From Pseudomonas sp. C2B4 (GTDB lineage: Bacteria > Pseudomonadota > Gammaproteobacteria > Pseudomonadales > Pseudomonadaceae), in contig NZ_JABFMU010000009.1 of the NCBI RefSeq assembly GCF_013359695.1, forward strand, positions 38,735-102,734: DNA of 64,000 nucleotides, in the 5' to 3' direction. Under the pieces are notes generated by a model that made no database searches, was not told the origin of the DNA, and saw only the letters and a program-made list of their open reading frames with translations. Positions 1 through 28,176 of this stretch are shown piece after piece. The position numbers and the translations under genes were made by a program. How positions within the stretch are numbered: position 1 is the first letter of the stretch; each line of letters starts with the position of its first letter.

Positions 1-114
1 AGGGCGGTATGTCCGGCATGGCCGGCATGGACCACAGCAAGATGGCTGGTATGGACCAGGGCGGTATGTCCGGCATGGCCGGCATGGACCACAGCAAGAT
101 GGCTGGTATGGACC
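1..114 (+). repeat. Two perfect 57-bp tandem repeats inside copA
   Basis: Bases 1-57 and 58-114 are identical. The period of 57 bp is 19 codons, so the repeat stays in frame and duplicates a Met-rich block containing MDHSKM. A third, diverged unit follows to about 160. More copies probably lie upstream of the window edge. Such arrays in CopA bind copper and vary in length between strains. Confidence 0.95.
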
Positions 115-689
115 ATGGTGACATGTCAGGAATGGCTGGCATGGGTGGAATGGATGGCATGGAGATGCAGTCGCACCCAGCCTCCGAGACCAATAACCCA
201 TTGGTCGATATGCAAGCCATGAGCACTACGCCGAAGCTTAACGACCCGGGTATTGGCCTACGGAACAACGGCCGTCGCGTGCTCACTTACGCGGATCTGA
301 AGAGCACTTTCCAGGACCCTGATGGCCGCGAGCCCAATCGGACGATCGAGTTGCACCTGACTGGCCATATGGAGAAGTTTTCCTGGTCATTCAATGGCAT
401 CAAATTCTCCGACGCCGAGCCATTGCGCCTCAAGTATGGCGAGCGCCTGCGCATCACGCTGGTGAACGACACCATGATGACCCACCCCATCCACCTCCAC
501 GGCATGTGGAGCGACCTCGAGGATGAGCACGGAAAATTCATGGTGCGCAAACACACGATCGACATGCCACCCGGTACCAAACGCAGCTATCGCGTCACCG
601 CCGATGCCCTGGGACGCTGGGCCTATCACTGCCACCTGCTGTTTCACATGGAAATGGGCATGTTCCGTGAAGTACGGGTTGATGAGTAA
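3..689 (+). CDS. copA: CopA multicopper oxidase, C-terminal part (cut by window edge)
   Basis: This is the C-terminal 228 codons or so of the periplasmic copper-resistance oxidase CopA; the reading frame is open to the left edge, so the true start is outside. The visible part begins with Met-rich repeats (MDHSKM, GGMSGMAGM) that bind copper. It ends with the third cupredoxin domain, which holds the copper ligands HPIHLHGMW and HCHLLFHMEMGM, giving both trinuclear-centre histidines and the type 1 Cys-His-Met set. It heads the cluster with the Met/His-rich protein, copB, cytochrome c and DUF411 genes. The family oxidises and sequesters Cu(I) in the periplasm. Identity is near certain; only the N-terminus is unseen. 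Confidence 0.96.
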   Translation, partial: GGMSGMAGMDHSKMAGMDQGGMSGMAGMDHSKMAGMDHGDMSGMAGMGGMDGMEMQSHPASETNNPLVDMQAMSTTPKLNDPGIGLRNNGRRVLTYADLKSTFQDPDGREPNRTIELHLTGHMEKFSWSFNGIKFSDAEPLRLKYGERLRITLVNDTMMTHPIHLHGMWSDLEDEHGKFMVRKHTIDMPPGTKRSYRVTADALGRWAYHCHLLFHMEMGMFREVRVDE

Positions 690-701
690 GGGAAACGGAT
701 T

Positions 702-968
702 ATGAGCAGATATCTGAATCGTCAGTCATTGATTGGTTGCGCCCTTGCCATCGGCATATTGAGTGGAGTGCCCTTGGTACAAGCTGGGGAAGGCAATGCC
801 GAGCACGCTCACGCTGCTGCCGACACAGACAAGTCAGCAACAAAGCATAAGACCAAGACAAGTGAGTCCAAGTCTGATCACGGTTCTATGGACCATGGAA
901 CGATGGACCACAGCAAAATGAATCACGAGTCGATGGATCATGACTCAAACACTAAAAAAGCGGATTGA
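702..968 (+). CDS. Small secreted Met/His-rich copper-binding protein
   Basis: The 88-residue protein starts 12 bases after copA. Residues 1-28 form a Sec signal peptide ending VQAGE or close to it. The mature part is short, charged and unstructured, with four MDH/MNH-type repeats ([19 protein letters not shown]) like those in CopA and CopB. Position between copA and copB and the repeat type suggest a periplasmic copper chaperone or buffer. I do not recognise a named family; no enzyme motif is present. It ends 4 bases before the copB start, so it is very likely co-transcribed with it. Confidence 0.8.
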
Positions 969-972
969 GACC

Positions 973-1926
973 ATGACCCTTAAGCTTTTACGTCCGACCC
1001 TGATGGCGTTGACGGTTTCAGTCAGCTCTGTGTTTGTTGGTATCGCTACCGCGGCTGAAGAGATGGATCACTCCAAGATGGATCATGGTTCGATGGGAGC
1101 CATGGACCATAGCAGCATGGGGGCGATGGATCACGGCAATATGAACATGGACCAAGGCCAAATGGAGGGCATGGATCACAGCACCATGAATATGGATGCT
1201 GGGGCAACCACCATGAGTCGGACGCCCATTCCTGTATTGACCGATGCTGATCGTAAGGCCGCCTTTCCGCCTGTCGCAGGTCATGGCGTTCATGACAAGA
1301 AACTCAACTCTTTCGTCCTCCTGGATAAATTTGAATATCAAGACGCGGATAACGGCAGCGCTCTGAGTTGGGATGCCAAAGGTTGGATCGGAGGCGACGT
1401 CGATCGTTTGTGGCTACGCTCGGAAGGTGAGCGTACTAATGGTGTGACGGAAGATGCCGAACTCCAGGCGCTGTGGGGCCATTCCATCGGTCCATGGTGG
1501 GATGTTGTCACCGGTGTGCGCCAGGACTTCAAACCCGGTTCACCGCAGACGTGGGGGGCTGTTGGGATCCAGGGCATGGCCCTCTACAACTTCGAAACTG
1601 AAGCAACCGCTTTCATAGGCGAGAACGGCCAGACCGCCGCTCGACTAGAAGGTGATTACGACATTCTGCTCACCAACCGCTTAATCTTGCAGCCGACCGC
1701 CGAAGTGAACTTCTACGGGAAAAACGACCCACAGCGCGGCATTGGCTCTGGATTAGCCAATACCGAAGTGGGCTTGCGGTTGCGCTATGAGATTGTTCGT
1801 GAGTTTGCCCCTTATATCGGGGTTACCTGGAATCGCTCCTACGGCAAGACCGCCGACCTGGCCAGCGATGAAGGGGAAGATACCAACGAGGCTCGCTTTG
1901 TAGCCGGTATTCGCATGTGGTTCTAA
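973..1926 (+). CDS. copB: CopB copper-resistance outer-membrane protein
   Basis: The 317-residue product has a signal peptide (residues 1-27), then a Met/His-rich stretch of MDHSKM/MDHGSM repeats to about residue 75, then a beta-barrel domain with alternating polar and apolar strands ending in an aromatic residue (MWF), the usual C-terminal signature of outer-membrane barrels. CopB is thought to bind copper and lower its entry across the outer membrane. I chose ATG 973, because the open frame from 940 overlaps the previous gene and only residue 12 onward gives a proper signal peptide. It lies 9 bases before the cytochrome gene. Confidence 0.93.
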
Positions 1927-1935
1927 GGGGCCGAC

Positions 1936-2751
1936 ATGAAAAGAACAATAAAAACGTTGACTGCTGCCAGTGTGGTCGCCGCCATTGTAGGCGCCGGTGT
2001 CGTGTATTTCGGGGTGTTTAATGTGGGCGCCGATGACCCCCATTCGCAGGCCGTGCACTCCCTACTCTCAACCGCTCGGGATCGATCAATCGAAGTACGC
2101 TCCCGAGACATTGAAGTCCCCGACCTGACAGACGAAGCGCTCATTCGTGCAGGTGCTGGCAACTACAATGCTATGTGCATTGGTTGCCACTTGGCTCCAG
2201 AGCTCGCGCAAACCGAGTTGAGTAAGAGCCTCTATCCGGCACCTCCCAACTTGTCGAAGCTTGGTGTCGATGGAAACCCAGCAGCAGCGTTCTGGATCAT
2301 CAAGCACGGTATCAAGTCCACGGGCATGCCTGCCTGGGGTAAAAGCATGTCCGATCCCTATATTTGGGGAATGGTTGCTTTTCTTCAGCAGCTTCCGGGT
2401 ATGGATGCTCAGGAATACAGAGCGTTAGCCGCGAGCAGCGGTGGCCATCAGCACGGTGGGGGTGAGTCCATGATGCATAACCATGAAGGTCAGCATGATG
2501 GTCAAGAAGAAGCGACTTCTTCACATCACCATGATGCAGGCGGAGCTGAAGAGCTCGCCGAAGCTGACGTTCACCACGGCGACACAATTGGCGCCCATGC
2601 ACATGGTGATGTAACACCTTCTCGGGATGATGGTGTCGAACACGCCCATCCTGACGGTGTGGGGGCTTCACATGACGCTCCTGCAACATCAGCCGCTCAG
2701 CCAAAGACTCATACCCATGCCGATGGTAAGGAGCACACTCATGCGCAATAA
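1936..2751 (+). CDS. Membrane-anchored cytochrome c with His-rich tail, copper cluster
   Basis: The 271-residue protein opens with an uncleaved or cleaved N-terminal hydrophobic segment (residues 7-30). A single class I cytochrome c domain follows, with haem motif CIGCH near residue 77 and likely axial Met in TGMPAW near residue 133. After about residue 170 comes a long His-rich tail (HQHGGG, HNHEGQH, HHHDAGG, HTHADGKEHTHAQ) that should bind metal. Such cytochromes recur in Pseudomonas copper clusters and may take electrons from CopA or reduce or oxidise bound copper. The partner and direction of electron flow are inference. Its 3' end overlaps the DUF411 start by 11 bases. Confidence 0.85.
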   Translation: MKRTIKTLTAASVVAAIVGAGVVYFGVFNVGADDPHSQAVHSLLSTARDRSIEVRSRDIEVPDLTDEALIRAGAGNYNAMCIGCHLAPELAQTELSKSLYPAPPNLSKLGVDGNPAAAFWIIKHGIKSTGMPAWGKSMSDPYIWGMVAFLQQLPGMDAQEYRALAASSGGHQHGGGESMMHNHEGQHDGQEEATSSHHHDAGGAEELAEADVHHGDTIGAHAHGDVTPSRDDGVEHAHPDGVGASHDAPATSAAQPKTHTHADGKEHTHAQ

Positions 2752-3214
2752 TTTTCGTCGTTCCGGCCGGGCACTTCGCCTCGCGACATTTGCGGTTCTG
2801 TTTATCGGCTCGGCTGCCCACGCTGCTGAACCTCTGACGATTGATGTCTATCGAGAGCTTTACTGCGGATGCTGCAAGAAGTGGATTAAGCACCTTGAAG
2901 CGAACGGCTTCACCGTCATTGATCATGTAGAAACAAACATAAACATGAGCGCGGTCAAGCAGGAGCTGGGCGTCGCTCCGCGTCTCTCGTCCTGCCACAC
3001 TGCGGTGATCAATGGGAAATTTGTTGAAGGCCACGTGCCTGCCGAGCAAATAGTCGAGTTGACTAAGCGCACCGACCTTCTCGGGATTGCTGTCCCCGGC
3101 ATGCCGGCAGGCTCGCCTGGGATGGAGGGCGAGGGACCGGAGGAAGTCTACCAAGTCATCGGCCTGACCAAAGCAGGTACTGATGAAGTACTCGCCGAGT
3201 ACCCAGCACACTAG
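2741..3214 (+). CDS. DUF411 metal-binding periplasmic protein (CopG-like)
   Basis: The 157-residue product has a signal peptide (to about residue 29, cleavage after AHA) and a DUF411 domain. The family's paired-cysteine motif CGCCKKW lies near residue 42, followed by the SSCHT motif near residue 83. DUF411 proteins are periplasmic thioredoxin-like metal binders found in copper and silver clusters. The start ATG 2741 overlaps the cytochrome stop codon and has AAGGAG eight bases upstream. A longer in-frame start at 2627 exists but would put 38 out-of-place residues before the signal peptide. It is the last gene of the copper operon before the hairpin at 3235. Confidence 0.9.
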   Translation: MRNNFRRSGRALRLATFAVLFIGSAAHAAEPLTIDVYRELYCGCCKKWIKHLEANGFTVIDHVETNINMSAVKQELGVAPRLSSCHTAVINGKFVEGHVPAEQIVELTKRTDLLGIAVPGMPAGSPGMEGEGPEEVYQVIGLTKAGTDEVLAEYPAH

Positions 3215-4379: not shown

Positions 4380-4808
4380 TTAACTCAAATGGCGGTTACG
4401 AAAGTCGTCCAGCCCTGTCACGTTACCTCGCTGCTCGCTTGCTTGCTCAATGAGCTGTTGCTGCAGCATGTAGTTCTCATGGACCAGCGACACAATCTTG
4501 CTGAGGGCTAGCTCATAATCCTTCCGGAGACTCGTAATCTGCCCATGTGCGGCCTTCTTAAGCGACTTTTGCTTTTCAACCTCCTGGGCAGCGCTTGGCT
4601 TTATTTGCGCGCTCTGATTGGCGGCAGCGGCTTCGATCTCAGCGATCAGCTCCGCGTTTTCAGCGCGACTTTTTTTGATGGAGCCGCGCTTACGGCCAGC
4701 TTCAAGAGCCACAGTATCCTTGTTGATCGCAGAGCCCTTCGGGACAATCTGTGGCCTCCCATTCATTAACCGATGCAGCGCCGCCCGGTAGTTTTCAAGC
4801 GCACTCAT
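4380..4808 (-). CDS. ginD: GinD-like small coiled-coil protein of the GInt module
   Basis: The 142-residue product is the fourth and last gene of the recombinase operon. Its ATG overlaps the ginC stop codon (ATGA). The N-terminal third is basic with a possible helix-turn-helix (residues 25-55, AGRKRGSIKKSRAEN). The rest is rich in Ala, Glu, Gln and Leu with heptad spacing, as in a coiled coil (about 50-125). GInt islands carry such a small protein after three recombinases, and TnpC of Tn554 holds a similar place. It is needed for recombination in that family and probably binds DNA or bridges the recombinases. Confidence 0.8.
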   Translation of the reverse strand: MSALENYRAALHRLMNGRPQIVPKGSAINKDTVALEAGRKRGSIKKSRAENAELIAEIEAAAANQSAQIKPSAAQEVEKQKSLKKAAHGQITSLRKDYELALSKIVSLVHENYMLQQQLIEQASEQRGNVTGLDDFRNRHLS

Positions 4809-6814
4809 GTCATCGCCTCCATTTTTTCCAGCAGCCCCCGATTCTCCAGCTTTTCGTAAATCGCATTGATTTCAGATTCAATCTGTTTGTACTGAGGATT
4901 CCTCGGCACGAACAGGGATTGTCCACGCTTCAGATTGTTCACGCCACGCTTGATATTCTTCAGGCTGCGGTCTTCATCGAGAAGGGATTTATCGCAGTCG
5001 AGACAGACGAATATGCTGGTGAAGGAAATTTTGTCGCAAGGTTCGAGATTCGTGCAGCCGCCCAGCGGGCTGGGCTTATAAACCATTTCGCCTCGCACGA
5101 ACTTCTTTTGTGTGAAAGCGCGATCCGTTGTGATGATCAACGGCTTACCCTGATCTCGGGACACTTGAATGCGATGTCCCTCGCCACCCCAAAGCCGGCT
5201 CGTGCTGTTGATAACATCTTCCTCGTAGTTGAGAAATTGTGCTTTGCGGCGCTCGTGCTCCAATTCATCCAGCCAACGCTGCGATTCTTCGCTTTGGAGG
5301 AAATTTGTGGCAAATGCACTGCCCCTACGATAGTACGAGGCCATAACCTCTGTCAGGTGCTTAAATTGCAGCCCCAACGAACCCACGGAAACCATTCCAG
5401 AGCGCGCTGAATAGACTGCGAGGGAACGCCTGCACTGGTGAGTTGCCAAAGGCCAAAATTGACCCACTTTAACGTCAGGATCGGTCCGCCAATCCCGAAA
5501 ACCATCAAACTGCTCCAACTCACGAATATCTGATTCCTGAACCACCAACCCGGGCCATCGGCTTGTTATTCGATCTATCTGGTCTTTACTAGTCATTCTT
5601 GTAACAGGAGCACCCTTAAATGCCTGGTGAGGGGCGCCGCACTTTTTTCGCGCCGCGAAGAGTGGATACTGGCTCAAGTCGGATTCATCATGTTCGAACA
5701 ACAGCGCAGCAATCTGTCCAGCGGTCCGGGCCGCGATCACGCCTTTCTCGACAATGGGCGCTGTGACCCAGAATGTTTCAGTATGATTCTGGCCTGCAAT
5801 CTTCGACGTATAGCCGCGCAATATACTAATAATGGCGCCGCCCGCGCTTATCGTAGTATATGTGTCGGCAGGTAGGTGCCGGGCTTCATTTTCGCGCATG
5901 CCGGAGAACAAATGAATCCAGTATTTCGCAGCCTGTTGAATTTCACCAAGATAGGCGTTGAGTTGTATCCAGCTCGTAATAGATAATTTCTCAAAAACCG
6001 AACCAAGTCCGTTCTGGGCGACTGCGTCGCGCCATGCAATGCTATTTTTGTAGTCGCGTGCACGAGTTACGGAGAGACCGAATTTTGGGTTTTCTTTCCT
6101 CCGCCGGTAAAGCCCCATTATCGCTTCGCCGTTGGTATTGAAGGCATCTAACTCAGCATTGAGTGCAGTTATGATCTCAGCGTAGAGGCGCGATGGAATA
6201 AGCTTGGTTTGTTGTGGGTCATTTTTTTGTAGTTTTGGATGTTTGTCGTACATATCTTGCATACGTTTAACAATGGTGTAGCTCGATGGCGCAAACTCAA
6301 AGTTCGGGTGAGCTATCCTTAGATCAAAGACTTCTTTTATAAGATTAAGCATGCTGCGCATTTGATTTTGGCCTAACTCGGAAAAGCCTCGCAATAGCAA
6401 GCGATTGATGTTTGCTTCTTCGAACAATTGAAGCAGTGAAAGGTCGCTATTGAGCGCTAGGCGCGCTAGCCTGTTAATCTCAGTAATTCCAATGGAATTA
6501 GGCTTGCGCGGTACGGGAAACAAATACATCCGCGCCAGTTGAATGCGCTTCATTTCATCGGCAATGACTATTACCAGCGGACTGCTCTTCGAGTTCTCTG
6601 CCCAACTATAGAAGTTGTATATGCATCTGCCTTGTGCGCAGTACATTTTCATATTCCAAGAGTCATCTTGGTAGCGCGAAACGATCTCTCCAGTCGCCGT
6701 GCGTGAAACAACAAAGCTCCCATCAACGGTAAAGTAGTGCGATGCATCAGCGCAGCTATCAGGCAGCTGGTGAGCTTGATACTGATTGAGTTTGAGATTT
6801 GTAAGAATGCTCAC
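4805..6814 (-). CDS. ginC: Third large tyrosine recombinase of the GInt module (GinC)
   Basis: With the GTG start at 6814 the product has 669 residues. That start overlaps the ginB stop as GTGA, matching the coupling of the other pairs; an upstream start at 6880 would overlap ginB by 70 bases and is less likely. The C-terminal half shows tyrosine-recombinase marks: an Arg in FSGMRENEARHLP, the second Arg in HQCRRSLAVY, and a C-terminal pair of tyrosines in MASYYRRGS. Four cysteines between about residues 585 and 625 (GGCTNLEPCDK, CLDCDK) may bind zinc. The N-terminal half is a long helical domain typical of these oversized recombinases. Confidence 0.85.
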   Translation of the reverse strand: MSILTNLKLNQYQAHQLPDSCADASHYFTVDGSFVVSRTATGEIVSRYQDDSWNMKMYCAQGRCIYNFYSWAENSKSSPLVIVIADEMKRIQLARMYLFPVPRKPNSIGITEINRLARLALNSDLSLLQLFEEANINRLLLRGFSELGQNQMRSMLNLIKEVFDLRIAHPNFEFAPSSYTIVKRMQDMYDKHPKLQKNDPQQTKLIPSRLYAEIITALNAELDAFNTNGEAIMGLYRRRKENPKFGLSVTRARDYKNSIAWRDAVAQNGLGSVFEKLSITSWIQLNAYLGEIQQAAKYWIHLFSGMRENEARHLPADTYTTISAGGAIISILRGYTSKIAGQNHTETFWVTAPIVEKGVIAARTAGQIAALLFEHDESDLSQYPLFAARKKCGAPHQAFKGAPVTRMTSKDQIDRITSRWPGLVVQESDIRELEQFDGFRDWRTDPDVKVGQFWPLATHQCRRSLAVYSARSGMVSVGSLGLQFKHLTEVMASYYRRGSAFATNFLQSEESQRWLDELEHERRKAQFLNYEEDVINSTSRLWGGEGHRIQVSRDQGKPLIITTDRAFTQKKFVRGEMVYKPSPLGGCTNLEPCDKISFTSIFVCLDCDKSLLDEDRSLKNIKRGVNNLKRGQSLFVPRNPQYKQIESEINAIYEKLENRGLLEKMEAMT

Positions 6815-8769
6815 GACACGGTTCCTATTGTAACCAATGTATCGAAGTGAATGGCCCAAAATGGGTCGAGCGCACCGCATTCGATCTCATCGCGCACCCG
6901 GTTGATAATTGACTCGTAACTTGCATCAATGTCTTGAATGGCCGAGAGCACTTCGTCGATACGATGGACAGTCGGTCCAAATTTGCTTTGCCAATGGTCA
7001 GAGGGTTGTTTTGCTTTAATGGCCTGGATTAGATAGCGCAACGACAGCAGGCGACGAAGATCCTCTTCATCTGCGTGAACGGCGTAGTGCGCGCAAAACA
7101 AGCAGGATTCCGGGTCAACGCAGGAGGGTGTGGGAGCCCGCGCAGTAAAGCCTTGGGCGTGCTGAGGTTGCGATTCAGGCGGTTTCTCACACGACCCTGT
7201 GCATGTAGTAGTTATCTCATCTTTCTTTTTGTCAAGAATACGCACCGGGATTAGCTCTACAGTACGCGTGCGTGTGATGGCGGATTGGTACTGTGCTTCT
7301 AGGAAGTGACTGATTTCCGTCGCGTAGTCTTCCAGTGCAGGCCGACTGTAGCTCTGCCGCAAAGTCGCTTCGGTGTTGCTCAGCTTTTCCGCAGTGACTG
7401 ACATATCGCTACCACTCAACTTCACATATTGATAGCTGACATTTTTTCGCCATTGCGTTGGAGTTACCCAAATTGTTTTGGGTAACGCTCTAGAGAGAAG
7501 CCTTTTGAAACCATTTATACTGGAGCCACCCACTGGTGCTACTCCATATCCGTTTGAGACAACAGGAAACACCAAAGTACTGTGTGCGCCATTCAAAACC
7601 CACGTCCGTAATTCAAGGTACTTTTTGAATACAGGAGCAAAACGAGCTCCAAACTCCGGCTCAACGGTTTTCCCGCCAGCCCGTGCCTTAGTTCCCGAGA
7701 AACGCTGACCTTGTGTGCTGGATACAATTTTTAGTGTGCCGACTGCGAGATTTTGAGCCACTTTGAGATTGCAGCCTGTAGCGGCGATAAATGCCAGCAT
7801 GCCTGCGACCACAGCATGAGCACCGATTCGAATCCTTAGCCATGAGCGTGAATTATTGTTGTTTTTTTCATGCCGCTGCCTTGTGTCGTCATAGTTGGCT
7901 CTCATATTTTGCAGTTCTGCGCTATCACCCATCAAACCGAAGTGTCCTTTTACTTCTTCCCAAGTAGGAAACGTCGGTAACTCAACTAATATGGATGAGG
8001 TACTAAATTCTGCGGACTGAGATTTTACGCTATTGAGGTGCAATGAATAGAGATAACAAAGCTCGTCTTTAGGCGATCTGAGATGAAGCGGGAGAGCATC
8101 GCCCTTAACCAGGGCGCGATGCGCTTCATCAATGTAGTTGATCAGTACGGCAAATGTCTGTGCTTGAGTGTCGGCATTCGGTAACTTCAAATTTACATGG
8201 TTCGCGTGCGTGCTTCTTCGTGGGATATATGTCGCGATGCTGTTGACTTCTGGCTCGCTCAGGTCAGTTGTTGTAATCACTAATTTTCGAGCAGCGGCCT
8301 GATAGGACGAAGCAGTAGTTTGTTTAATCGACTGTCCACTGATCCCCGAGCTATTCATTCGATGCAGTAAATATCCGGTATAGTCGCTATAAGCTTGTTT
8401 CATAGACTGCATGTCATCAAAAGCGTAGTGGGACTCCTGCGTGTCAATCCAGTCAACAAATATTTTATATGTATCGAAGTCCTTAGCTATTACGGGACGA
8501 CTATCCCCAGCACTCAATTGCTCTATTAAAGCTTGCGCGAAAGGAGTTCGTGATTTATCGAGGGATGACAGATCTACTGGGCAGCCTATTTTGGTGTGCA
8601 GTTGCTTACCCCGACGCGTATAGCAAAGCGATCCGATATCTAAGTATCGCTTGCCGATGTCGGCACCATTATTAATCATCAAGACAGCCAGTTGCGGATG
8701 AATTACCTCAACATTTGTATCTTTCGCGTCAATAACTACGACCTGGCGATGAATGAAGTTGCTGCTCAC
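6811..8769 (-). CDS. ginB: Second large tyrosine recombinase of the GInt module (GinB)
   Basis: The 652-residue product starts at an ATG that overlaps the ginA stop (ATGA). It is a diverged tyrosine recombinase: the usual catalytic block I reads AATGCNLKVAQNL, where the Arg is replaced by Asn, block II reads WRKNVSYQYVKLS, and a Tyr follows in LRQSYSRP. The Arg loss suggests a reduced or structural role, as proposed for one member of such trios; this is inference. A cysteine cluster lies near residues 545-570 (TCTGSC, CVDPESCLFCAHY) and could hold zinc. Neighbours ginA and ginC make the assignment firm. Confidence 0.82.
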   Translation of the reverse strand: MSSNFIHRQVVVIDAKDTNVEVIHPQLAVLMINNGADIGKRYLDIGSLCYTRRGKQLHTKIGCPVDLSSLDKSRTPFAQALIEQLSAGDSRPVIAKDFDTYKIFVDWIDTQESHYAFDDMQSMKQAYSDYTGYLLHRMNSSGISGQSIKQTTASSYQAAARKLVITTTDLSEPEVNSIATYIPRRSTHANHVNLKLPNADTQAQTFAVLINYIDEAHRALVKGDALPLHLRSPKDELCYLYSLHLNSVKSQSAEFSTSSILVELPTFPTWEEVKGHFGLMGDSAELQNMRANYDDTRQRHEKNNNNSRSWLRIRIGAHAVVAGMLAFIAATGCNLKVAQNLAVGTLKIVSSTQGQRFSGTKARAGGKTVEPEFGARFAPVFKKYLELRTWVLNGAHSTLVFPVVSNGYGVAPVGGSSINGFKRLLSRALPKTIWVTPTQWRKNVSYQYVKLSGSDMSVTAEKLSNTEATLRQSYSRPALEDYATEISHFLEAQYQSAITRTRTVELIPVRILDKKKDEITTTCTGSCEKPPESQPQHAQGFTARAPTPSCVDPESCLFCAHYAVHADEEDLRRLLSLRYLIQAIKAKQPSDHWQSKFGPTVHRIDEVLSAIQDIDASYESIINRVRDEIECGALDPFWAIHFDTLVTIGTVS

Positions 8770-10232
8770 GCAAGTCCACCCGTGTTGGCTGATGTATTGA
8801 TGTGGCTGAATAGCTGGTTTTCAAATTCATGCTGCACGCTGTTTTTCCACTTCAAGCGAGACTTATACTTCAAGTACTGCATGGTCGTTTCTATATTGGC
8901 GTGCCCCATGCGCTGTCTAACGTACTCCACCGCAGCTGTGATATTTTGGTCGCCCATGTGTTGCAATTGGCTTTCGAGCAAGTTCATACCGAATGTGGCG
9001 CGTAGGTCATGAAAGGTAAAGTCCTGAAAACTAGGACTATCACAACGAATACGCGGGAAGAGTATCTGTTGGATATGTGTCCGCAAAGCTGCACCATCTT
9101 GTATGGCGACGTCACGCGCTCTGTCGATCATTCCCGCGCTTTCGCTAATACGGCTATCTGAGTGATCGAATATTTCCTTTTTGCTGGTGTAATAAGGAAC
9201 ACCACTTTTACTCAAAAATACATAGTTATCCTCAGTGGCTCCGTAATAAGATCGATCGCGACGCTTTCTAGCTTCGTCACTGTCTACATAAATTCGCATA
9301 TCCTGCACAAGCCAACCAGGGACAAGCAGCGTCATACGTTTGCCGCGCTTCGTATCAATTTGTGAACCAGCGCCTATGGGAAGTCGCAGATAGCCATTGC
9401 TGTCAAAGTGGCCTTTAAGGTGCGTAAGTCGTAGGGTTCCGATAGTCTGGACTCTTGCACCTGTAAATAAGGCAAAATAGAACATAAGCTGATATTCGCG
9501 AGACGATTTAAGCAGGGCTTTTAATACGCATGATTGTTCGTCAACGGTAAGCGGACGAAGCATTCCGCCATCGTTGATATACTCGCTCTGGCGCTGTTTT
9601 TTTTGATTCGGAATAGCTAGGTTGTGCGAATTAACTTTGAGATTTTTCTGGATGCCATAGCTCGACGTTACGCTGATATATTTTTTTATCTCTGTAAACG
9701 CAATTCCATAGAGTTTGTCACCGTCAATGAGATTCCAGTTGATTATTCCGCGATAAAAGTTGACCACGGCATTGATTCTGGCGCTGGCTGTGCTTGCAGA
9801 AAGTTGCCCATCATTAACAAACTCGATCAGTCGTTGTCGGTAGCGAAATGTGACCTTAAGGCGGTCATTCTTAGGGAAAAACAAATAATCTAGCTTTTCC
9901 TCTTCAATAAAACGCAAATAGTCGAGTAGATGATCGGCAATCCCTCGGAATGTTTTTGATTCATAACTGACTTCTTTATGGAGTTTCGTAATTAGGTAAA
10001 GGTTTCCGATGGTCCACGGTTCACCGTCGCTCTGAATGAGTACGGGAAAATTTGGTAGGTATCCCTTCTCACCCTCTACGAATTCATAATCCGGCAGGCT
10101 GTTCGAAGCCCTGCAATCACCTATTTCTAGGAAGCACAATGTTACAGGCCTGAACTCGGAAATGAGGATTCTCCGTGCGGTTGAGTCGTAGCGCCCTTGC
10201 CCGGTTTTGCTTCTAATCTGATTTCTCGCCAC
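8766..10232 (-). CDS. ginA: First tyrosine recombinase of the GInt module (GinA)
   Basis: The 488-residue protein has a full tyrosine-recombinase C-terminal domain: Arg in FTGARVQTIGTLRL, HDLRATFGM (His-x-x-Arg), and RMGHANIETTMQYL with the nucleophile Tyr near residue 453. An N-terminal core-binding domain with helices around residues 110-170 precedes it. It starts with GTG at 10232, the first gene of the operon, about 85 bp from the island end. The DNA-proximal position and intact catalytic set mark it as the most active recombinase of the trio. It is AT-richer than the chromosome to its right. Confidence 0.9.
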   Translation of the reverse strand: MARNQIRSKTGQGRYDSTARRILISEFRPVTLCFLEIGDCRASNSLPDYEFVEGEKGYLPNFPVLIQSDGEPWTIGNLYLITKLHKEVSYESKTFRGIADHLLDYLRFIEEEKLDYLFFPKNDRLKVTFRYRQRLIEFVNDGQLSASTASARINAVVNFYRGIINWNLIDGDKLYGIAFTEIKKYISVTSSYGIQKNLKVNSHNLAIPNQKKQRQSEYINDGGMLRPLTVDEQSCVLKALLKSSREYQLMFYFALFTGARVQTIGTLRLTHLKGHFDSNGYLRLPIGAGSQIDTKRGKRMTLLVPGWLVQDMRIYVDSDEARKRRDRSYYGATEDNYVFLSKSGVPYYTSKKEIFDHSDSRISESAGMIDRARDVAIQDGAALRTHIQQILFPRIRCDSPSFQDFTFHDLRATFGMNLLESQLQHMGDQNITAAVEYVRQRMGHANIETTMQYLKYKSRLKWKNSVQHEFENQLFSHINTSANTGGLA

Positions 10233-10286: not shown

Positions 10287-11279
10287 TTATGCTGTCAATA
10301 GGGCTACGTTCGGACTATCGTCGAAAATCATCAGCGTCGGCAGGTGCGCCAATGCCCGGGCGACCTTGCCCAGCCCGGCCTTGAAACCGTCGATGCGCGT
10401 CTGTTCCAGCGCATAACGCTCGCGTCTTTGCGGCGTCAGCACTGGCGCCTGTGGCGCAATCAAGGTCCAGGGCGTCGGCGACCAGACCAGCAGGTACATG
10501 GCCATGACTTCGGCGAAGGTCACCAGATGGTTGTCGGCACTGCTGCTGGTGAAAATCGGCTTGCGCGCACCGCCGAAAAAACGCTCGCGCAGGGTTTCGT
10601 TGCTCTCCAGCGCCGGCAACAAATCCGCACGGTGGTAGTAGCTGGCGGGGTGCTCGTAGAGTTTGGCGCTGTCGCTGACCACCGCGCCTTCCAGATGCTC
10701 GCCGAACAACCCCAGACGCTCGATCAAGTCATGAATCGCCCGCAGCGTCGGCCCGGCCACATCGTCGGCGTAGACCTGATCGCCGCTCATCATCAGCAGT
10801 GCCGGGCGATCACAGGCGTCATGGTCTTGCGCCAACAGCGCATCGACACAGAGCAAGCCATCCGTCGCCGGGTGATGCGGCTTGCGGCAGGAACCGTGGA
10901 GCAATTGATCGATCCGTGAGCGCAGGACAAAGTTCGGTGCACGCGCATCGCCGTACAACAGGTGCGGTGCCCAGTCGGCGATGCCGATGCCGTCATCGAT
11001 CAACAGGTCATATTCGATCCGCTCATCGCAGGGCAGGGCGGTTTCCAGTGACACATCGATCAGGTGCACAAACGCCTGCGTGCCCACCGCAATCACCGTG
11101 CATTGCCCGGCATCCAGGCGAATATCGCCCACGTTCTGCAACCGCAGCGTCAGCTCCAGCGCCCGGGTCCCCACCAGCCACAGCACCAACCGCGTGGGTT
11201 CCAGCCGTCGCAGCAGCGGGCCGGTCAGCACGGGGGGCAAAACTTGATGAGCGTCGGGCAATGGCAAGGTTACGGACAT
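10287..11279 (-). pseudogene. PhoD-like alkaline phosphatase gene, truncated by the island
   Basis: The 330-residue frame is the N-terminal part of a PhoD-like metallophosphatase. It holds the first metal-binding motif MMSGDQVYADDV (near residue 175) but stops just where the second one, of the WDDHE type, begins: LMIFDD is followed by SPNVALLTA and a stop in place of the expected His-Asp. The last nine residues come from island DNA. The 3' part, with the remaining metal ligands, is outside the window or lost. The product should be inactive. Codon use and GC content match the chromosome to the right, so the gene is old and the break recent. Confidence 0.82.
10310..10335. other. Island-chromosome junction (attachment site)
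   Basis: Right of about 10317 the minus strand encodes the chromosomal phosphatase up to Met-Ile-Phe-Asp-Asp (bases 10317-10331). Left of it the reading frame runs into island DNA and stops after nine unrelated codons. The family's next residues should be His-Asp, which are missing. The crossover therefore lies at or just inside this Asp-Asp codon block. The matching other junction, with the rest of the gene, must be left of the window. Confidence 0.75.
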
Positions 11280-18665: not shown

Positions 18666-19141
18666 CACGCGTCCTCCCGGCAAGCATCGAGCAAGGCATC
18701 CAGACGCTCTGCACTGAGCCGCGCATGCACCCGGCCATCCAGCTCCAGAGCGGGCGAACAGGCGCAGGCACCCAGGCAATAAACGGGACGCAAACTGATG
18801 CTGCCATCGGCGCTGCTGCCGTGGTCATCCAGTTGCAGGCGATCGCGCAACTGCGCGGCCAACTGCTCGGCCCCGCGGCTCTGGCAAGACTCGGCGCGGC
18901 ACAAACGCAGAATATGGCGGGCCGGCGGCGAGGTACGGAAATCATGGTAAAAACTGATCACCCCGCGAACCTCGGCCTGACTCTGGTTCAGCGCATGGGC
19001 AATCTCGGGGATGGCCGCATCGGGGATATAGCCGATGCGCTCCTGAATATCATGAAGAATCGGCAACAGCGCGCCGGGAGTGCCCTTATGGCGCTCCAGC
19101 AGAGTGTTGACCACAGACAGGTGCAAACTCTCATCAGGCAT
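18665..19141 (-). CDS. fdsG: Formate dehydrogenase gamma subunit, FdsG (NuoE-like)
   Basis: The 158-residue protein is NuoE-like. It has the thioredoxin-like fold with a [2Fe-2S] site: CRAESC (near residue 85) and CLGACACSPA (near residue 124). It bridges electron flow with FdsB. It is the first gene of the operon. The upstream gap holds a 7-base inverted repeat, CGGACAA/TTGTCCG (19161-19190), 20 bases before the start, whose role is unknown. Formate dehydrogenase of this type gives the cell NADH from formate made in one-carbon metabolism. Confidence 0.94.
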   Translation of the reverse strand: MPDESLHLSVVNTLLERHKGTPGALLPILHDIQERIGYIPDAAIPEIAHALNQSQAEVRGVISFYHDFRTSPPARHILRLCRAESCQSRGAEQLAAQLRDRLQLDDHGSSADGSISLRPVYCLGACACSPALELDGRVHARLSAERLDALLDACREDA

Positions 19142-19600
19142 TCAGCAATCCTCACGGTCACGGACAAACCTGGTGGTTGTCGGTTGTCCGAAAGTGTCGG
19201 CTGCGGCATTCACACCACGTCACGGTATCGTGGCAGGCCGTTGGCCAGGGCACCCTTGGCGGGCATCTTGTTGCGCCCGATGCGATCTGCGTCGCACCTC
19301 TACCGGGCATAAAGGGCAGCTTGCCACGCGGCTATTGATTGAACTGCACCAAAGCGACGTGCTCGGTTCTGCCTACGACTCTCCATTAAGTCTAGTTGAG
19401 CGGGGCACGGGAGCCTCGGCCAGTGGCTTAATGCCGCTATGGGCTTGTCGTGGTGGATGTATAGCAAGCATTACAGGTGGGAAGAAGCATCAGAACCATG
19501 GGCAAATCTACGGAGCAGATGCAGGGGGGGCTGACTCTGCAATCCCGATCGAGTATGAAGTCAGGCACAAGCCGTTCATTTGATAAACAGGGAAAGACCG
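19142..19600. other. Intergenic region between fdsG and the PH-domain gene
   Basis: These 459 bases lie between divergent genes and hold no gene I can support. They contain the CGGACAA/TTGTCCG inverted repeat near fdsG and an AT-poor middle. Promoters for both genes must be here, but no strong -35/-10 pair can be called by eye. The overlapping open frames read as random. Confidence 0.5.
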
Positions 19601-19969
19601 ATGATTGATTTCAACAACAAGGGATTCTTCAAACTCAAGCAAAACGACGAATACGCCGAACGCGTTTCCGCCCTGTTGATCGACGGCGAACACGTCATCG
19701 ACGCCTACAAATCCATGCGCGACGGCGTGGTGTTCACCAACAAACGCATCATCTCGGTCAACGTCCAGGGCATCACCGGCAGCAAAAAAGACTTCACCTC
19801 ATTGCCCTACAAAAACATCGTCGCGTACTCGGTCGAAACCTCAGGCACGTTCGACCTGGATTCCGAGCTGGAGATCTACTTCTCATCGTTGGGCAAAGTA
19901 AAATTCGAATTCACCGGCAAGACGTCGATGGTGGAAGTTTCGAAGCTGATTTCCCAACATCTGCTTTAA
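19601..19969 (+). CDS. PH-domain (bacterial pleckstrin-like) protein
   Basis: From ATG 19601 the product has 122 residues. It is a single bacterial PH-like domain: LIDGEHVIDAYKSMRDGVVFTNKR followed by IISVNVQGITGSKKDFTSLPYKNIVAYSVE, and a C-terminal helix. The pattern DGVVFTNKRII is the family hallmark. It is a soluble cytosolic protein. Function is unknown; such domains often oligomerise or bind lipid. The start at 19601 is preceded by GGGAAAG; the frame from 19580 adds seven residues and lacks a site. It stands alone between the divergent fds operon and the DUF3077 region. Confidence 0.85.
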   Translation: MIDFNNKGFFKLKQNDEYAERVSALLIDGEHVIDAYKSMRDGVVFTNKRIISVNVQGITGSKKDFTSLPYKNIVAYSVETSGTFDLDSELEIYFSSLGKVKFEFTGKTSMVEVSKLISQHLL

Positions 19970-20035
19970 CCACCCCCCAACAAAAAGCCCCGGAAACCCC
20001 GGGGCCAAACCAAATACCCACCAACACACAAACCC

Positions 20036-20185
20036 CCTGTAGGAGCGAGCCTGCTCGCGATAACGCCAGCCCAGCCAACACCAATCCCGAATGCAGAACT
20101 GCATAAGCAGCCCACCCACCCAAGCCAAACAATGCCAGCCAACTCACCCCAACCCCTGTGGGAGCGGGCTCGCCCGCGATAGCGC
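20036..20185. repeat. Two REP units in the same orientation
   Basis: TAGGAGCGAGCCTGCTCGCG (about 20040-20060) and GTGGGAGCGGGCTCGCCCGC (about 20158-20178) are two REP units, here in direct and not inverted order, about 115 bases apart. They separate the PH-domain gene from the convergent DUF3077 gene. Confidence 0.8.
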
Positions 20186-20255
20186 CAGCCCAACCAACAT
20201 CAATCTGAACCAGCCACCAAAATCACAAGCAACCCAACCCCACAGACATCAACAA

Positions 20256-20567
20256 CTACTCTCCAGCCTTCGCCGCCGCCCGCTCGGATACCTGCCCAGA
20301 AGCCCGATCCCGAGTCAGCACCTTAACCGCATCATCCACCACCGCCTTACTCATCGCCGTCAAATAATGCGCGGCCCAAGCGTGGTAATCCGTGTCCCTG
20401 ACATAGGCCGCATCCTTGGTCAGCGCCTTGGCGAGAAACAGAAAATCAGAAGCCATGGCCAATGCATCGTCCAACGGGACATCGCGGGTGACGTGGAATA
20501 GAGGTTGATCGGAGCAGTAGATGGCGGGGGTTAAACCGATGGTTTTGAGTTCGGGCTGTTCGGTCAT
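20256..20567 (-). CDS. DUF3077 family protein
   Basis: From ATG 20567 the product has 103 residues. It has the DUF3077 pattern common in Pseudomonas: LFHVTRDVPLDDALAMASDFLFLAKAL. These are small acidic cytosolic proteins of unknown function that occur in several paralogues per genome. The start with MTEQPELKTIGL fits better than the frame from 20594, which adds nine unusual residues. Upstream lies the candidate structured RNA and minus-strand terminator. Confidence 0.8.
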   Translation of the reverse strand: MTEQPELKTIGLTPAIYCSDQPLFHVTRDVPLDDALAMASDFLFLAKALTKDAAYVRDTDYHAWAAHYLTAMSKAVVDDAVKVLTRDRASGQVSERAAAKAGE

Positions 20568-20723
20568 TGGCCACCTCCGAGGAGGGAGAGGCAATGGGGG
20601 AGGGTGTTATGCGATTGGGAGTTGCGTAGAGGGAACAGCCAAATTTCAAACGGATTGATACTGCGCATTATCCAACTCCTTGATATGAGGAGCTGCCACG
20701 TTCGTTTCCACACGAATGGGTGA

Positions 20724-20794
20724 CAGCTGTGCGCAGGGTGGAAAACCGGGAATCAAGGAAACCGGCACGCCCGAAGACGTCCCACGCACAGCCG
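20724..20794 (+). ncRNA. Candidate structured RNA element upstream of the DUF3077 gene
   Basis: GCTGTGCG (20726-20733) pairs perfectly with CGCACAGC (20785-20792), and GGG/CCC inside extends the stem. Within it, two CCGG blocks can close an inner hairpin around GAATCAAGGAAA. From memory, near-identical blocks stand beside other DUF3077 genes in Pseudomonas, as in a repeated RNA or antisense element. The strand is not certain, and no protein in this window explains the pattern. C4-type antisense RNAs are one family to test. Confidence 0.4.
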
Positions 20795-20816
20795 CCATAA
20801 CTCACGCCGCAGGCAT

Positions 20817-20849
20817 AAAAAAAGCGCCGGCAGACGTGATGGGGGCGCT
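20817..20849 (-). terminator. Intrinsic terminator on the minus strand
   Basis: Read on the minus strand, AGCGCC and GGCGCT enclose a loop of 15 bases and are followed by a run of seven T. It would stop minus-strand transcripts coming from the 21-kb side, ahead of the DUF3077 region. Confidence 0.6.
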
Positions 20850-21335
20850 GTTGCGCCTTGAATTACACGGGTTTCCACACCCGGTCGCTGAATTGGCAGC
20901 GACGGTAGGAGGGTATCGTGCAGATTTAGATCCTGCAACCTTGGAGGGATTCGATCACAAGCACAGATGGCGAAAAATTTAGTCTGTTCCGATTTCGGTC
21001 CGTATCAGCATCATCGAAAAGATGCAGGAATGCATCATAAAGGCATCGCAGACATCCTAGCCTCTTCTCCAAGATAGCGAAGCTATTGTTGCCGATGCCC
21101 CGCATTAACCAGCTATTCCCTACGCTAGGAATAAATCTCCTAGCCGAAGGCTGACCCTGACGAGGAAACAGGATTGATGTAACCTACCGTGCTAGCCGGC
21201 CTTTTGCCATAAACCTAGTACCCAAGTCACGTGAAGACACCGACACCTCTCTCGCCCGACGATGTTATGAGGGATGCAGCTGAGAAGCTTCGCAGTTGGG
21301 AATGCGCCAGCAAGAATAGAACAAGGAAGCTTCGG
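20850..21335. other. Gap leading into the defence operon
   Basis: No gene is supported in these 486 bases. A GCTAGGA/TCCTAGC hairpin with a 7-base loop sits at 21124-21144. Composition changes here from GC-rich chromosome to AT-rich insertion, so the left border of the inserted defence locus lies somewhere in 20980-21300. A GTG at 21231 opens the frame of the MBL gene early but lacks a ribosome site. Confidence 0.45.
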
Positions 21336-22391
21336 ATGAGCGTTCGAGTGACTGTTTTACAGGCTGACCATGGAGATTGCCTACTGGTCTCTTATCTGGG
21401 AGACGGAGGGCCCTTCAACATATTGATTGATGGGGGAACGGTCAATACTTTTAGGCGGCCCAATGGGGCGCCCGGCCCATTGAGGCTAATCCTTGATAAT
21501 CTTAAAACAAGCGGACAGTCAATTGACCTCTGTGTACTAACTCACATTGACAGCGATCATATTGGTGGAATGAAGCGAGCTTTCGAAACCGATGGGTATC
21601 TTGGAACTATTACCAAGAAGCTCTGGTATAACTCATCCGTTCTAATTACTGATGCAGCTGGTGTCCCTGACATTATTGAAAATCATGTCAAGTTTGATAA
21701 GGATGAAAATCCGCAAACCAGCTTTCGACAAGCATTTACCCTAGAAAGTAAAATCATGTCGGGAAACTATTGGCATAAAAATTTAATATTGACAGGGCAG
21801 AAACATACAGAAGGACCATTCACATTAACAGTGCTCTCTCCTTGTAAAGGCGATATTCTTAAGCTGGCGAACAAATGGCCGAAAGAGTTCATAAGTCCTT
21901 ATACTTCCGGAAAGCGCAAGGATGTCAATGAGTCCTTTGTAAACTTACTAAGTAAAGATTTATTTGTTGATGATGACGCGCCAGCAAATCGCAGCTCCAT
22001 TTCATTTCTTTTGGAGCTAGGAAGCTTTAGAGCACTCTTTTTGGCCGACGCACCCGATGATGTGGTGCGACAGTCTCTGACATCCCTGGGATACAGCGAT
22101 TCTAATAAGATAAAAGTTGATTTCGTTAAGGTATCTCACCATGGAAGCCAGAGCAATACGAGCCAAGAGTTTCTCTCGATGATAGATAACTCGGGGTTCT
22201 TTTTTTCCACAAACGGTTTGGTACACCAGCATCCCGACAGACTGACCATAGCCAGGATTCTCAAGCAACATCCACAAGCTAAACTGTATTTCAACTACCA
22301 AGAAGTAATAAGCCAGACCTTTAGCTATGCTGAGCTTACCAAATACGCCTCAAACATATCCACAATACAAAGTTTGGATTTTTACCCGTGA
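21336..22391 (+). CDS. MBL-fold hydrolase of a Lamassu-like defence operon (ComEC/Rec2-type domain)
   Basis: From ATG 21336, with AAGGAAG nine bases upstream, the product has 351 residues. It is a metallo-beta-lactamase-fold hydrolase of the ComEC/Rec2 branch: ADHGDCLLV and ILIDGG, then the metal motif HIDSDH (His70, Asp72, Asp74, His75), LADAPDDV, and KVSHHGSQSNTS. All ligands look intact. There is no signal peptide or membrane segment, so it acts in the cytosol. It is the first of four coupled genes; its stop overlaps the protease start by 4 bases (GTGA). By context it is a co-effector, probably a nuclease or phosphodiesterase; the substrate is inference. Confidence 0.88.
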   Translation: MSVRVTVLQADHGDCLLVSYLGDGGPFNILIDGGTVNTFRRPNGAPGPLRLILDNLKTSGQSIDLCVLTHIDSDHIGGMKRAFETDGYLGTITKKLWYNSSVLITDAAGVPDIIENHVKFDKDENPQTSFRQAFTLESKIMSGNYWHKNLILTGQKHTEGPFTLTVLSPCKGDILKLANKWPKEFISPYTSGKRKDVNESFVNLLSKDLFVDDDAPANRSSISFLLELGSFRALFLADAPDDVVRQSLTSLGYSDSNKIKVDFVKVSHHGSQSNTSQEFLSMIDNSGFFFSTNGLVHQHPDRLTIARILKQHPQAKLYFNYQEVISQTFSYAELTKYASNISTIQSLDFYP

Positions 22392-23713
22392 ATTTCTCAC
22401 AAGACACGACCGCTTTGCAGTGCGTCAATCAGTACGCAGTAAAGGTTAACGGAGGAAGCGGGGTTTTAGTAAGTTCTCTGCACCCCGACGTAGCATATGT
22501 CTTAACTGCTCGGCATGTTGCTGAAAAAAAGCAAGTGGTAGAGAGTTACGACGGCTTGAAGATAAAGGTAAAAAAATGCCTCACATTTCCTGATCGGGGG
22601 AAAACCAAAGGCTTAGATTGTGCAATTTTAGTAATTGATCCAGTCGAAGGTTTAAATTATGCACCGGTGACAACATCTGCCATTAGGCCAGGAATGCCTT
22701 GCTGGATGATTGGTTATCCTGAAAGTCGGGCTCAGATGGTTGGTAATGCCAAGCAGATCAAAAATCAAGACTGTACCGTAGGCTCTGCAGAGAGCCATAA
22801 GTTCATCATAAACGCCACAAATGGCCCTCAGAAAATATATATTAATGGATTTTCTGGTGCGGGTGTTTTTATCGATTCAAATGGGCGGCTCGAGCTTTTA
22901 GGGATAGAGTATGGAGTAGATGAGGCGCCGATTGATTATAATGAACAAGCTGGACGTTTAGTTTGCTACACAATGAATCATTTCATACAGCTTTTGGCGG
23001 ATAAAAAACTCCCGCCACTTGCGCCGGATTATTTAGGGTGTTTCTCCCGCATAAGTAATCTGATTTTTAATCTAAACTTCATAAATAACACAACCCTTGC
23101 AGAAGTCCAAGTCTACTTAAATCGAATCTCTCAGAACCTAATCGACAACGGCCTTCCTAAGCCTTTTCAAATGGTGGAAAAATATGGCTCCCATCTCTTG
23201 ATCCCAAGCACAGATCCTGGGGCAATAATGGATCGAAACCTCTGGGTCGGACTTTTGGAGTTTTACGTAATTTGCAGTGCAATTGATTCCGTGCAATGTC
23301 TTGCAAGTGAATACATTGAGGACTCAGCTAAAACTCGAAGATTTTTGTATCACAACTCAAGCCAGAGTTGGCTCGCTAAACTCAGGGAAATATTGGATTT
23401 TGCAAACCAAACAATGAGCTCCCACGGTGTAGTTGTTGTAGGCTCGCCAGAAGGTAATCCCTTGATAGAGCCTGACGAAATCCATCTAAGCGACATAATA
23501 ACCGACATTGCTTCTCCTAACCCTGTTGCACAAAAGCAAGAAATAGATGCTCATACGGTGAGCAAGCTTGAAAGCCTTTCAGTGCACCACCTTACTGCAC
23601 TTAATAGCAAATGCTTAGTTAAGAATGAGTATCGACTCAGAGGTAAGAGCCAAATCGAATTCGTAAAACTATTTAAGGAGTACTATGGAGAGTTTATTAA
23701 GGGCAGACCTTAA
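22388..23713 (+). CDS. Trypsin-like serine protease effector of the Lamassu-like operon
   Basis: The 441-residue product, read from a GTG, has a trypsin-like domain in its first 200 residues: His43 in LTARHVAEK, Asp77 in LDCAILVID, and Ser156 in NGFSGAGVF form a complete triad. There is no signal peptide, which is unusual for trypsin-like proteins and points to a cytosolic role. The C-terminal 240 residues are a separate helical domain without a recognised family; it likely docks on the ATPase complex. The 3' end overlaps the next gene by 29 bases. Lamassu systems with paired hydrolase and protease have this order. Confidence 0.85.
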   Translation: MNFSQDTTALQCVNQYAVKVNGGSGVLVSSLHPDVAYVLTARHVAEKKQVVESYDGLKIKVKKCLTFPDRGKTKGLDCAILVIDPVEGLNYAPVTTSAIRPGMPCWMIGYPESRAQMVGNAKQIKNQDCTVGSAESHKFIINATNGPQKIYINGFSGAGVFIDSNGRLELLGIEYGVDEAPIDYNEQAGRLVCYTMNHFIQLLADKKLPPLAPDYLGCFSRISNLIFNLNFINNTTLAEVQVYLNRISQNLIDNGLPKPFQMVEKYGSHLLIPSTDPGAIMDRNLWVGLLEFYVICSAIDSVQCLASEYIEDSAKTRRFLYHNSSQSWLAKLREILDFANQTMSSHGVVVVGSPEGNPLIEPDEIHLSDIITDIASPNPVAQKQEIDAHTVSKLESLSVHHLTALNSKCLVKNEYRLRGKSQIEFVKLFKEYYGEFIKGRP

Positions 23714-24200
23714 TCTTCGAAGCTTGGAGGCTGAATTTCCAAACTTCAAATTTTACGCATATGCCTCAAGTGATCAGTCGATTGTTTGCTTTGCATGTTT
23801 TAATAGCAATAAGGAAAATATACTATCCAATTGGGAAGGGATACAAGGCATCATAGCCGGAAAATTTCAAGCCACAGATGATCGCGCAAAATGGAATTAT
23901 TATCTTGCATTTTTCACCCCTGAAAAGTTACCAATAACAGAAATTTATCGCATCCAGAACGACAGATTTTGTAGTCGTAAATTGATATTTGATAAACATG
24001 TGTACCCCTTCGATGCTGAGCACATCCAGCAAGTTTTGAGCAGGGATATACTGGGGTCGTCACTTAAACTAGACCTACGACAAATACCAGAACAATTTAA
24101 CAGTTCTCTGTCCGAAGTATTGACGTCCGTTCCATTGAGCCACAATCCGATAGACAAAGACAAAAGGCGCGCAATTTTAAGTAGCTTGATAGGTGCATAA
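23685..24200 (+). CDS. lmuC: Middle component of the ABC three-component system (LmuC-like)
   Basis: The 171-residue protein begins 29 bases before the protease stop and has TAAGGAG seven bases upstream of its ATG. It ends 3 bases before the ATPase gene. It carries no catalytic motif; the sequence is compact alpha/beta (WNYYLAFFTPEKLPITEIYRIQND) followed by helices, as for the small middle proteins that link effector and ATPase in ABC three-component systems, called LmuC in Lamassu. Assignment rests on size, place in the operon and this general pattern. Confidence 0.75.
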   Translation: MESLLRADLNLRSLEAEFPNFKFYAYASSDQSIVCFACFNSNKENILSNWEGIQGIIAGKFQATDDRAKWNYYLAFFTPEKLPITEIYRIQNDRFCSRKLIFDKHVYPFDAEHIQQVLSRDILGSSLKLDLRQIPEQFNSSLSEVLTSVPLSHNPIDKDKRRAILSSLIGA

Positions 24201-24203
24201 TAG

Positions 24204-27200: not shown

Positions 27201-27335
27201 AAGCAGATCATAATCTCTACTCACGATGAGAATTTCTACAAACTACTTCAAAAGAAAATTCCACTTGATAATGGATCTAAATTTTTGAGGCTTGAGTCAT
27301 ACGGCGTAGTCCGCGTCGAGCCAGCGCAACTGTAA
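24204..27335 (+). CDS. lmuB: Rad50/SMC-like ATPase with zinc hook (LmuB-like), sensor of the defence operon
   Basis: The 1043-residue protein has an N-terminal ATPase half with Walker A (NGFGKSS, Lys45), then about 800 residues of coiled-coil-forming sequence broken at Cys525/Cys528 (CPLCNHPYDDHE), a Rad50-type zinc hook. The C-terminal ATPase half has an ABC signature-like YFSAAQLNILSLS, Walker B (FIDDPMHSMD, Asp973-Asp974) and H-loop ISTHDENF. This is LmuB of Lamassu by domain order and by its partners. Such proteins sense foreign DNA, for example DNA ends or palindromes, and then release the effector; that part is family knowledge. The gene is clearly AT-richer than the core genome around it. 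Confidence 0.87.
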   Translation: MKIKNVKIQAFRAYNSIENGTFDFLLNDGEPAKFVALYAPNGFGKSSFYDAVEWALTKSIGRYVRASTKTNNVAAADNSKDPESPQYILRNHDAPLELKTSVSVLTTISKKPFTRNLSPAVDGARDFSFTGKVAKGRAAFRDIFLSQEGVDAFIRESKPADRYERFMDTFSVDAEDTRKKLYALRAENTQMLDEIRNEISKLEELIAKPVNLTAFEQYNLAVNSLGDEGQYLKVSESNLNQASEGNLKFMIAEVIRRFERLAEFKNSEIELLKNLILDSEIAYDSERSLADSVETYSHLSMAVAKSRRCKELSTQIENQQAVLTDLNSQVSELKQLAQSLPPFDVATKSIAILEQSLSEELLSLKNEESTHKVISIALEKLSKSITDADTLLHQWRSYQDAAKNSFLIIQTESELIQQINLKIQDLESRLSALNISELALSERINKLSISGLDRHNVISNITGLIPISEDVSIRLSSANRRIVQLEAQLSENALALKAVNDQSGLFGQLVNLGQTLILEHKGANCPLCNHPYDDHEKLLAAIAKNDAIPSLQSYLQQQAQSISSERETTVNEADELLRRILQFVDEALASVRLTLAQVTKNKLITNSELNTLRSQQITATGKLNAAREYTLQMDEPALVNHINSQIAIIEENKKSYVSLREIEERGFRRCLSLIEQSQKNIQELRSSVDAHKGQPAYLFVAQYASKIGLPLGAGLHEHCKTKQEELIQKLSDAETLLNQALTETSTLQSWMIQSKIWLKDSDVEQAYTELHDSRATWLGLQSNFGKRFSEIFNIPAPSALNITNGLLNGKISECLAECATLRKKIDTCSTLQELLPVLLPYIEHLTHKRNLSPLMLLKTQHEALQERLENEISEVVSYLESKISGFFYNDLINEIYKKIDPHPNFNTVEFVPTFSQDERPSLHIVVVDEKNKRVPPTLYFSAAQLNILSLSIFLAKAIHATYEGAPVDVIFIDDPMHSMDSINILSTIDLLRNISRQLNKQIIISTHDENFYKLLQKKIPLDNGSKFLRLESYGVVRVEPAQL

Positions 27336-27350
27336 AAAGTCTCTTACGAA

Positions 27351-28023: not shown

Positions 28024-28075
28024 GGGTGAGTCCTTGTGAAAGGGTCAGGCGGGGTGAAGGGTAAAAAAGGTCAAA

Positions 28076-28106: not shown

Positions 28107-28138
28107 ACGGTGGGGTGTCAGGTGCTTTTCTATAGGCG

Positions 28139-28169: not shown

Positions 28170-28176
28170 TTAATTT

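Follow-up and report, generated by a model that had tools for sequence, protein, structure and literature searches.

Within a 64,000-nucleotide stretch of the Pseudomonas sp. C2B4 genome (the window), an open reading frame at positions 10287-11279 of the minus strand encodes about 330 amino acids and ends in ...LPTLMIFDD-SPNVALLTA-stop; this is a truncated PhoD-like gene, host DNA through LMIFDD and island DNA from there on. This raises the question of which kind of element splits a phosphatase gene inside a conserved motif, and whether the codons of that motif are its regular landing site. An earlier note on this DNA had placed the break at LMIFDD, followed by island DNA and a stop, and both the open reading frame and intact relatives bear this out. 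The features of the locus are as follows.

3..3214, plus strand: presumed cargo, comprising part of a multicopper oxidase, CopB, cytochrome c and DUF411 genes (Pfam)
4380..4808, minus strand: srap-like small protein, 142 aa (41% identity over 75 aa, 3.5e-13, to the SE srap-position gene)
4805..6880, minus strand: intB-like large tyrosine recombinase, 691 aa as listed (22.7% identity, 1.6e-13, to the SE intB-position gene)
6811..8769, minus strand: tfp-like protein, 652 aa (24.5% identity over 322 aa, 8e-12, to WP_034039553.1)
8766..10232, minus strand: intA, tyrosine recombinase, 488 aa (PF00589 Phage_integrase, 3.6e-8; 24% identity, 9e-24, to the SE intA-position gene)
10287..10317, minus strand: left end of the element (TAGTCCGAACGTA...), encoding SPNVALLTA-stop in the phosphatase frame
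10318..10323, minus strand: attL six-base spacer CGACGA, taken as host bases (register from the terminal inverted repeat)
10324..11279, minus strand: 5' half of the PhoD-like gene, host DNA, from Met1 to the Phe codon of LMIFDD (open reading frame and intact relatives; PF09423)

The interrupted gene was detected in 19 of 38 searched genomes, C2B4 among them, and its open frame spans 638-918 aa in the 18 others, which lack the island, versus 332 aa in C2B4; in a wider sample of 398 Pseudomonas genomes, 299 had it. At the motif, intact relatives (about 640 aa) carry LMIFDDHDITDDW, and FDDHD[IV]T was found in all 19 full-length relatives (the 18 from the 38-genome search plus genome G101), so that the His reported as the missing next residue is indeed expected at this point. 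The 3' part, predicted to lie at the other end of the island, was recovered from the same assembly at C125:1674-2636, where it starts with HDITDDW, i.e., with the missing His, and directly abuts non-host DNA. It was the single match to the second half of a relative in the C2B4 genome and sits on another contig, the two island ends being on C132 and C125. Searching this genome with each half returned the split copy only and no second copy of the phosphatase, indicating that the island supplies no replacement within the assembled sequence. Homologues ending naturally at FDD were not seen among the matches listed, in which only carriers of the same element end there.

Functional assignment of the target was based on several lines of comparison. 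An intact relative matches PF09423 (PhoD) at 2e-9, with the best stretch at 488-553, and its FDDHDITDDW aligns on LDDHEIEDNW of another PF09423 protein, from C2B4 (hhalign E 1.7e-5; BLASTP 7e-6). Alignment of the target to a second PF09423 protein of C2B4 with hhalign gave nothing useful, and a PDB search with the intact target gave no direct match; the WDDHE of that second C2B4 protein aligns with the solved alkaline phosphatase D 2yeq. A search of plasmid DNA with the junction yielded short distant pieces only, mostly named alkaline phosphatase family protein. As judged from these similarities, the target is a PhoD-like phosphatase, and the cut motif is the equivalent of the DDHE of PhoD, whose residues we take to be metal-binding. 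The phosphatase is halved inside this conserved DDH motif and is probably inactive.

Comparison with genomes lacking the island, as the earlier note had proposed, and the register of the element ends place the crossover at the six-base spacer at 10318-10323. This CGACGA comprises the third base of the Phe codon, the first Asp codon, and two bases of the second Asp codon. The element starts at 10317 and already contributes the last base of that second Asp codon. On the intA side, C2B4 reads ATTTT-CGACGA-TAGTCCGAACG, the six bases corresponding to window positions 10323 to 10318, and on the far side CGACTA-GGATGA-CCACGAT. The intact site is ATGATNTT-YGAYGA-YCAYGAY in all 19 relatives, where YGAYGA follows from the invariant Phe-Asp-Asp (TTY-GAY-GA) and does not constitute separate evidence. 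With attB written as ATGATNTT[YGAYGA]YCAYGAY, its split halves are kept in attL and attR, with six host bases beside intA and six foreign bases at the far end. The register was set by the element ends: with YGAYGA as the spacer, 18 of 20 positions (the terminal five bases in each of four elements) pair as an inverted repeat, compared with 0-9 of 20 for eight other registers and with none of 20000 shuffles reaching 18, although the four elements are related and thus do not represent four independent tests. With gaps allowed and 13 positions considered, per-element repeat tests gave a weak signal for two elements out of three (1039 and 992 of 20000 shuffles as good). A spacer on the two Asp codons (GAYGAY) was also considered, and dropped in favor of YGAYGA after the register scan.

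The four genes behind the left end identify the element. Their products match, in the same order, four genes of one P. aeruginosa plasmid, the second of which, WP_034039553.1, is the published Tfp of SE-PaeBT2436 as described in the main text of PMC10214605. Pfam recognized intA alone, with no match for the tfp-like, intB-like and srap-like proteins, and NCBIfam returned nothing useful for any of the four. When inspected by eye, neither the first catalytic Arg nor the HxxR box is present in the tfp-like protein, although it has a Tyr near the usual place, while the intB-like protein, whose real start may lie further downstream than listed, has all of the Arg, HxxR and Tyr boxes. The copper-resistance type genes at 3-3214 are presumed, from their position, to be cargo of the same element. 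About 49.1 kb separate the junction from the start of C132, and the footprint on C125 is preceded by 1,675 bases; this whole span may belong to one element or to more than one.

Insertions at these codons were seen in five species, four of Pseudomonas and one of Stutzerimonas. Among the 398 genomes of the genus, IntA matches of at least 72% identity came from C2B4 (G000), G053, G118 and G247, and all four loci abut the phosphatase at the same codons, IntA being partial in the latter two. A scan of GTDB r220 contigs returned two loci, both in the phosphatase, from P. lurida 114A4 (taken as G053) and Stutzerimonas sp. S1, and of 390 genomes from the order, two showed the junction pattern, C2B4 and G247, both Pseudomonas. 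G118 and G247 have the same left end as C2B4, and closely similar versions of it occur in G053 and Stutzerimonas sp. S1. Elements with both ends on one contig measure 10,280 bp (G053), 8,261 bp (Stutzerimonas) and 29,031 bp (G247), and the first two of these include all four genes. The elements of G118 and G247 (two of the five) look incomplete: in G118, the first 100 aa of IntA adjoin a contig end and the 3' half of the phosphatase was not found in the assembly, while in G247 intA is reduced to its first ~90 aa and the other three genes had no match. This last locus (L061/L062 on contig C77) has the appearance of a decayed copy, with 29 kb between two ends and only the start of intA left. Each of the four readable far ends displays a different footprint, namely GGATGA (C2B4), CCTTGG (G053), CGATGG (G247) and CTTGCG (Stutzerimonas sp. 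S1), and these four footprints, from two genera, argue for repeated site-specific integration at the phosphatase codons.

Taken together, the island is very probably an SE-type element (intA-tfp-intB-srap) integrated site-specifically at the Phe-Asp-Asp-His codons of the PhoD-like gene. The order of its genes, its two junctions, the pattern of the six-base exchange, and the recurrence of the same target codons across five species were all seen directly. Other explanations were weighed against the same evidence. A GInt (ginABCD) was considered before an SE, and was rejected since the catalytic residues are distributed as in SEs, with the second protein lacking them and the third having them. 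According to the description in PMC5385486, GInts share this plan, i.e., a recombination operon of three recombinase-like genes and a small protein at one end with cargo behind, and also display six-base staggered cuts and imperfect repeats. In GInts as described, however, it is the second protein that is catalytic and the third that lacks the first Arg, the reverse of the C2B4 element (by eye). Moreover, all four C2B4 element proteins match SE proteins, GInts being set apart here by published description rather than by sequence, and the main text of PMC10214605 reports no BLAST similarity between SE and GInt genes. A GInt is thus an improbable identity for this island.

A single old insertion inherited by descent, with no repeated targeting, would fit the relatedness of the elements, whose intA genes are 72-84% identical to that of C2B4. 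Such an event is difficult to reconcile with the four readable far ends, each of which has its own footprint, with differences in element length and cargo, with an occurrence in two genera, and with a gene that is intact in most of the relatives examined, and we consider it very unlikely. Finally, C2B4 is a draft genome of 132 contigs, with the gene halves on different contigs, as might also result from an assembly artefact or a chance frame break. The same junction recurs in four other genomes, three of which have both ends on one contig, so that this last explanation is hardly credible.

For an SE-type element, the junctions can be read along the published SE model (PMC9345347, PMC10214605, as far as described there). 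IntA and IntB would cleave the DNA on either side of the six-base spacer, and a circular copy bearing six bases from its previous home would enter the target. The six bases of the target would then remain beside intA, in attL, and the imported six would be left at the far end, in attR, as a footprint. This corresponds to the rule given in these two papers, in which the target's six bases lie beside intA and those of the previous home at the other end. The likeness to SEs as described extends to the order intA-tfp-intB-srap, the attL spacer, the attR footprint, a small number of selected targets, and, from the by-eye alignment of the C2B4 proteins, catalytic residues in IntA and IntB but not in Tfp. 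In contrast, the C2B4 proteins are only 23-41% identical to those of the compared SE, the target is a PhoD-like gene, and the end repeats are shorter than the imperfect 13-19 bp terminal inverted repeats published for SEs. SE-6283-like elements are all located in one coding gene, bcp (same sources), and SE-6283 carries a bcp homologue, whereas no replacement copy of the target was found on the C2B4 island. GInts are similar in inserting site-specifically into protein genes (ABC transporter and ssb genes in PMC5385486); the known GInt sites described there are near gene ends, while the C2B4 site is mid-gene. Tn554 and its relatives (in part after PMC10214605) likewise combine a six-base footprint and target specificity with two tyrosine recombinases, one ordinary and one large, and with a small auxiliary protein, but have no tfp counterpart and are hosted by staphylococci and enterococci.

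The SE class is already known; what is new is the target, together with its precise boundaries and its repeated use, and the phosphatase landing site appears to be previously undescribed. Our literature search recognized no paper linking this phosphatase to SE or GInt integration, and the main text of PMC10214605 contains no mention of phoD, hrpB, mechanosensitive, helicase or umuC. The survey in PMC10214605 states that for most SEs no ends could be identified, and other Pseudomonas SEs with defined ends include SE-PaeBT2436 (PMC10214605) and SE-PaeJB0032 (PMC11064530). Both ends and the landing site are now defined for one Pseudomonas SE lineage, a clear case of a recombinase whose site consists of codons for a conserved protein motif. 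Resistance genes have been reported on SEs, and knowledge of their sites and footprints may help trace their movement.

The earlier note had suggested that the codons of an active-site motif offer a target conserved across species, as tRNA genes do for many integrases. The first part stands insofar as the same codons are used in five species, and since selection on the protein maintains Phe-Asp-Asp-His, variation of the DNA site is confined to third codon positions, which makes it available in many species. The site is highly, though not maximally, conserved: a 24-base window around the spacer has a mean identity of 0.921 across the 19 relatives vs a median of 0.833, with 6.0% of windows equal or better (8.9%, 6.8% and 10.1% for 18, 30 and 40 bases), and the best-conserved windows of the gene are located elsewhere in it. 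It is plausible that the site was chosen owing to its conservation. The tRNA analogy holds for the conserved site but not for its outcome, as the gene is broken here and the island supplies no replacement in the assembled sequence.

We extended the survey to more distant relatives of IntA, which yielded 78 matches in 71 of the 398 genomes of the genus. The 71 surveyed loci consist of 70 of these matches (30 + 40, with 8 left out) and L064, and an interrupted coding gene was assigned for 36: phoD (5), HrpB (21), MscS (7), YifB (2) and DUF808 (1), the other 35 being without assignment. These names derive from Pfam and NCBIfam searches of single representatives. Insertions are located after KGRYPK near the end of HrpB, after VQN in the MscS-type channel, and at NPCPC in the YifB-type ATPase; comparison with intact copies covered the HrpB and MscS sites, in five genomes each. 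The four genes were in SE order in all seven loci tested. Those without assignment include L084, where the HrpB end is intact, and L072, which gave no BLAST match. The 21 HrpB loci have 18 different 60-base element starts, so that some of these elements are near-identical.

Tentatively, and with somewhat less than even confidence, we suggest that every Pseudomonas SE lineage has its own conserved protein motif in whose DNA it lands, i.e., PhoD-like Phe-Asp-Asp-His, HrpB Lys-Gly-Arg-Tyr-Pro-Lys, MscS-type Val-Gln-Asn-Phe-Asp-Lys, YifB-type Asn-Pro-Cys-Pro-Cys, or the DUF808 site. Codons under selection could then serve as portable landing sites, and footprints would record previous homes. The pattern across HrpB, MscS, YifB and DUF808 makes target choice testable.

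Several further loci add detail to the survey. Many elements at the HrpB site (among L043-L094) begin with a common in-frame tail (LFHKLDPWVESLN...) that replaces the HrpB C-terminus, and others begin with CTATCR-type DNA; these two kinds of element start suggest that at least two element families share one site. A sister element on the P. aeruginosa plasmid NZ_CP093017.1 (L106, 8309-14476), with an IntA 71% identical to that of C2B4, uses another site, after CCCTA-TGACAC in a small gene that is lipoprotein-like by eye and had no match in Pfam; the annotation of this element splits the intB region into two genes. The element at the YifB-type site of L112 (G070:C3) is 40-52% identical to SE-PaeBT2436 in all four proteins, much nearer than to the C2B4 element. 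The main text of PMC10214605 reports no Tfp or Srap homologues outside Gammaproteobacteria. On plasmid NZ_AP028999.1 of the betaproteobacterium Paraburkholderia sp. 22B1P (L108, 3585-9387), four genes match those of C2B4 in order, with identities of 32%, 25%, 28% and 44%. In the remainder of the window, a second stretch of low G+C content (0.40-0.57) at 19001-28261 ends near a tRNA-Leu(caa) gene at 28177-28261 and is possibly another island.
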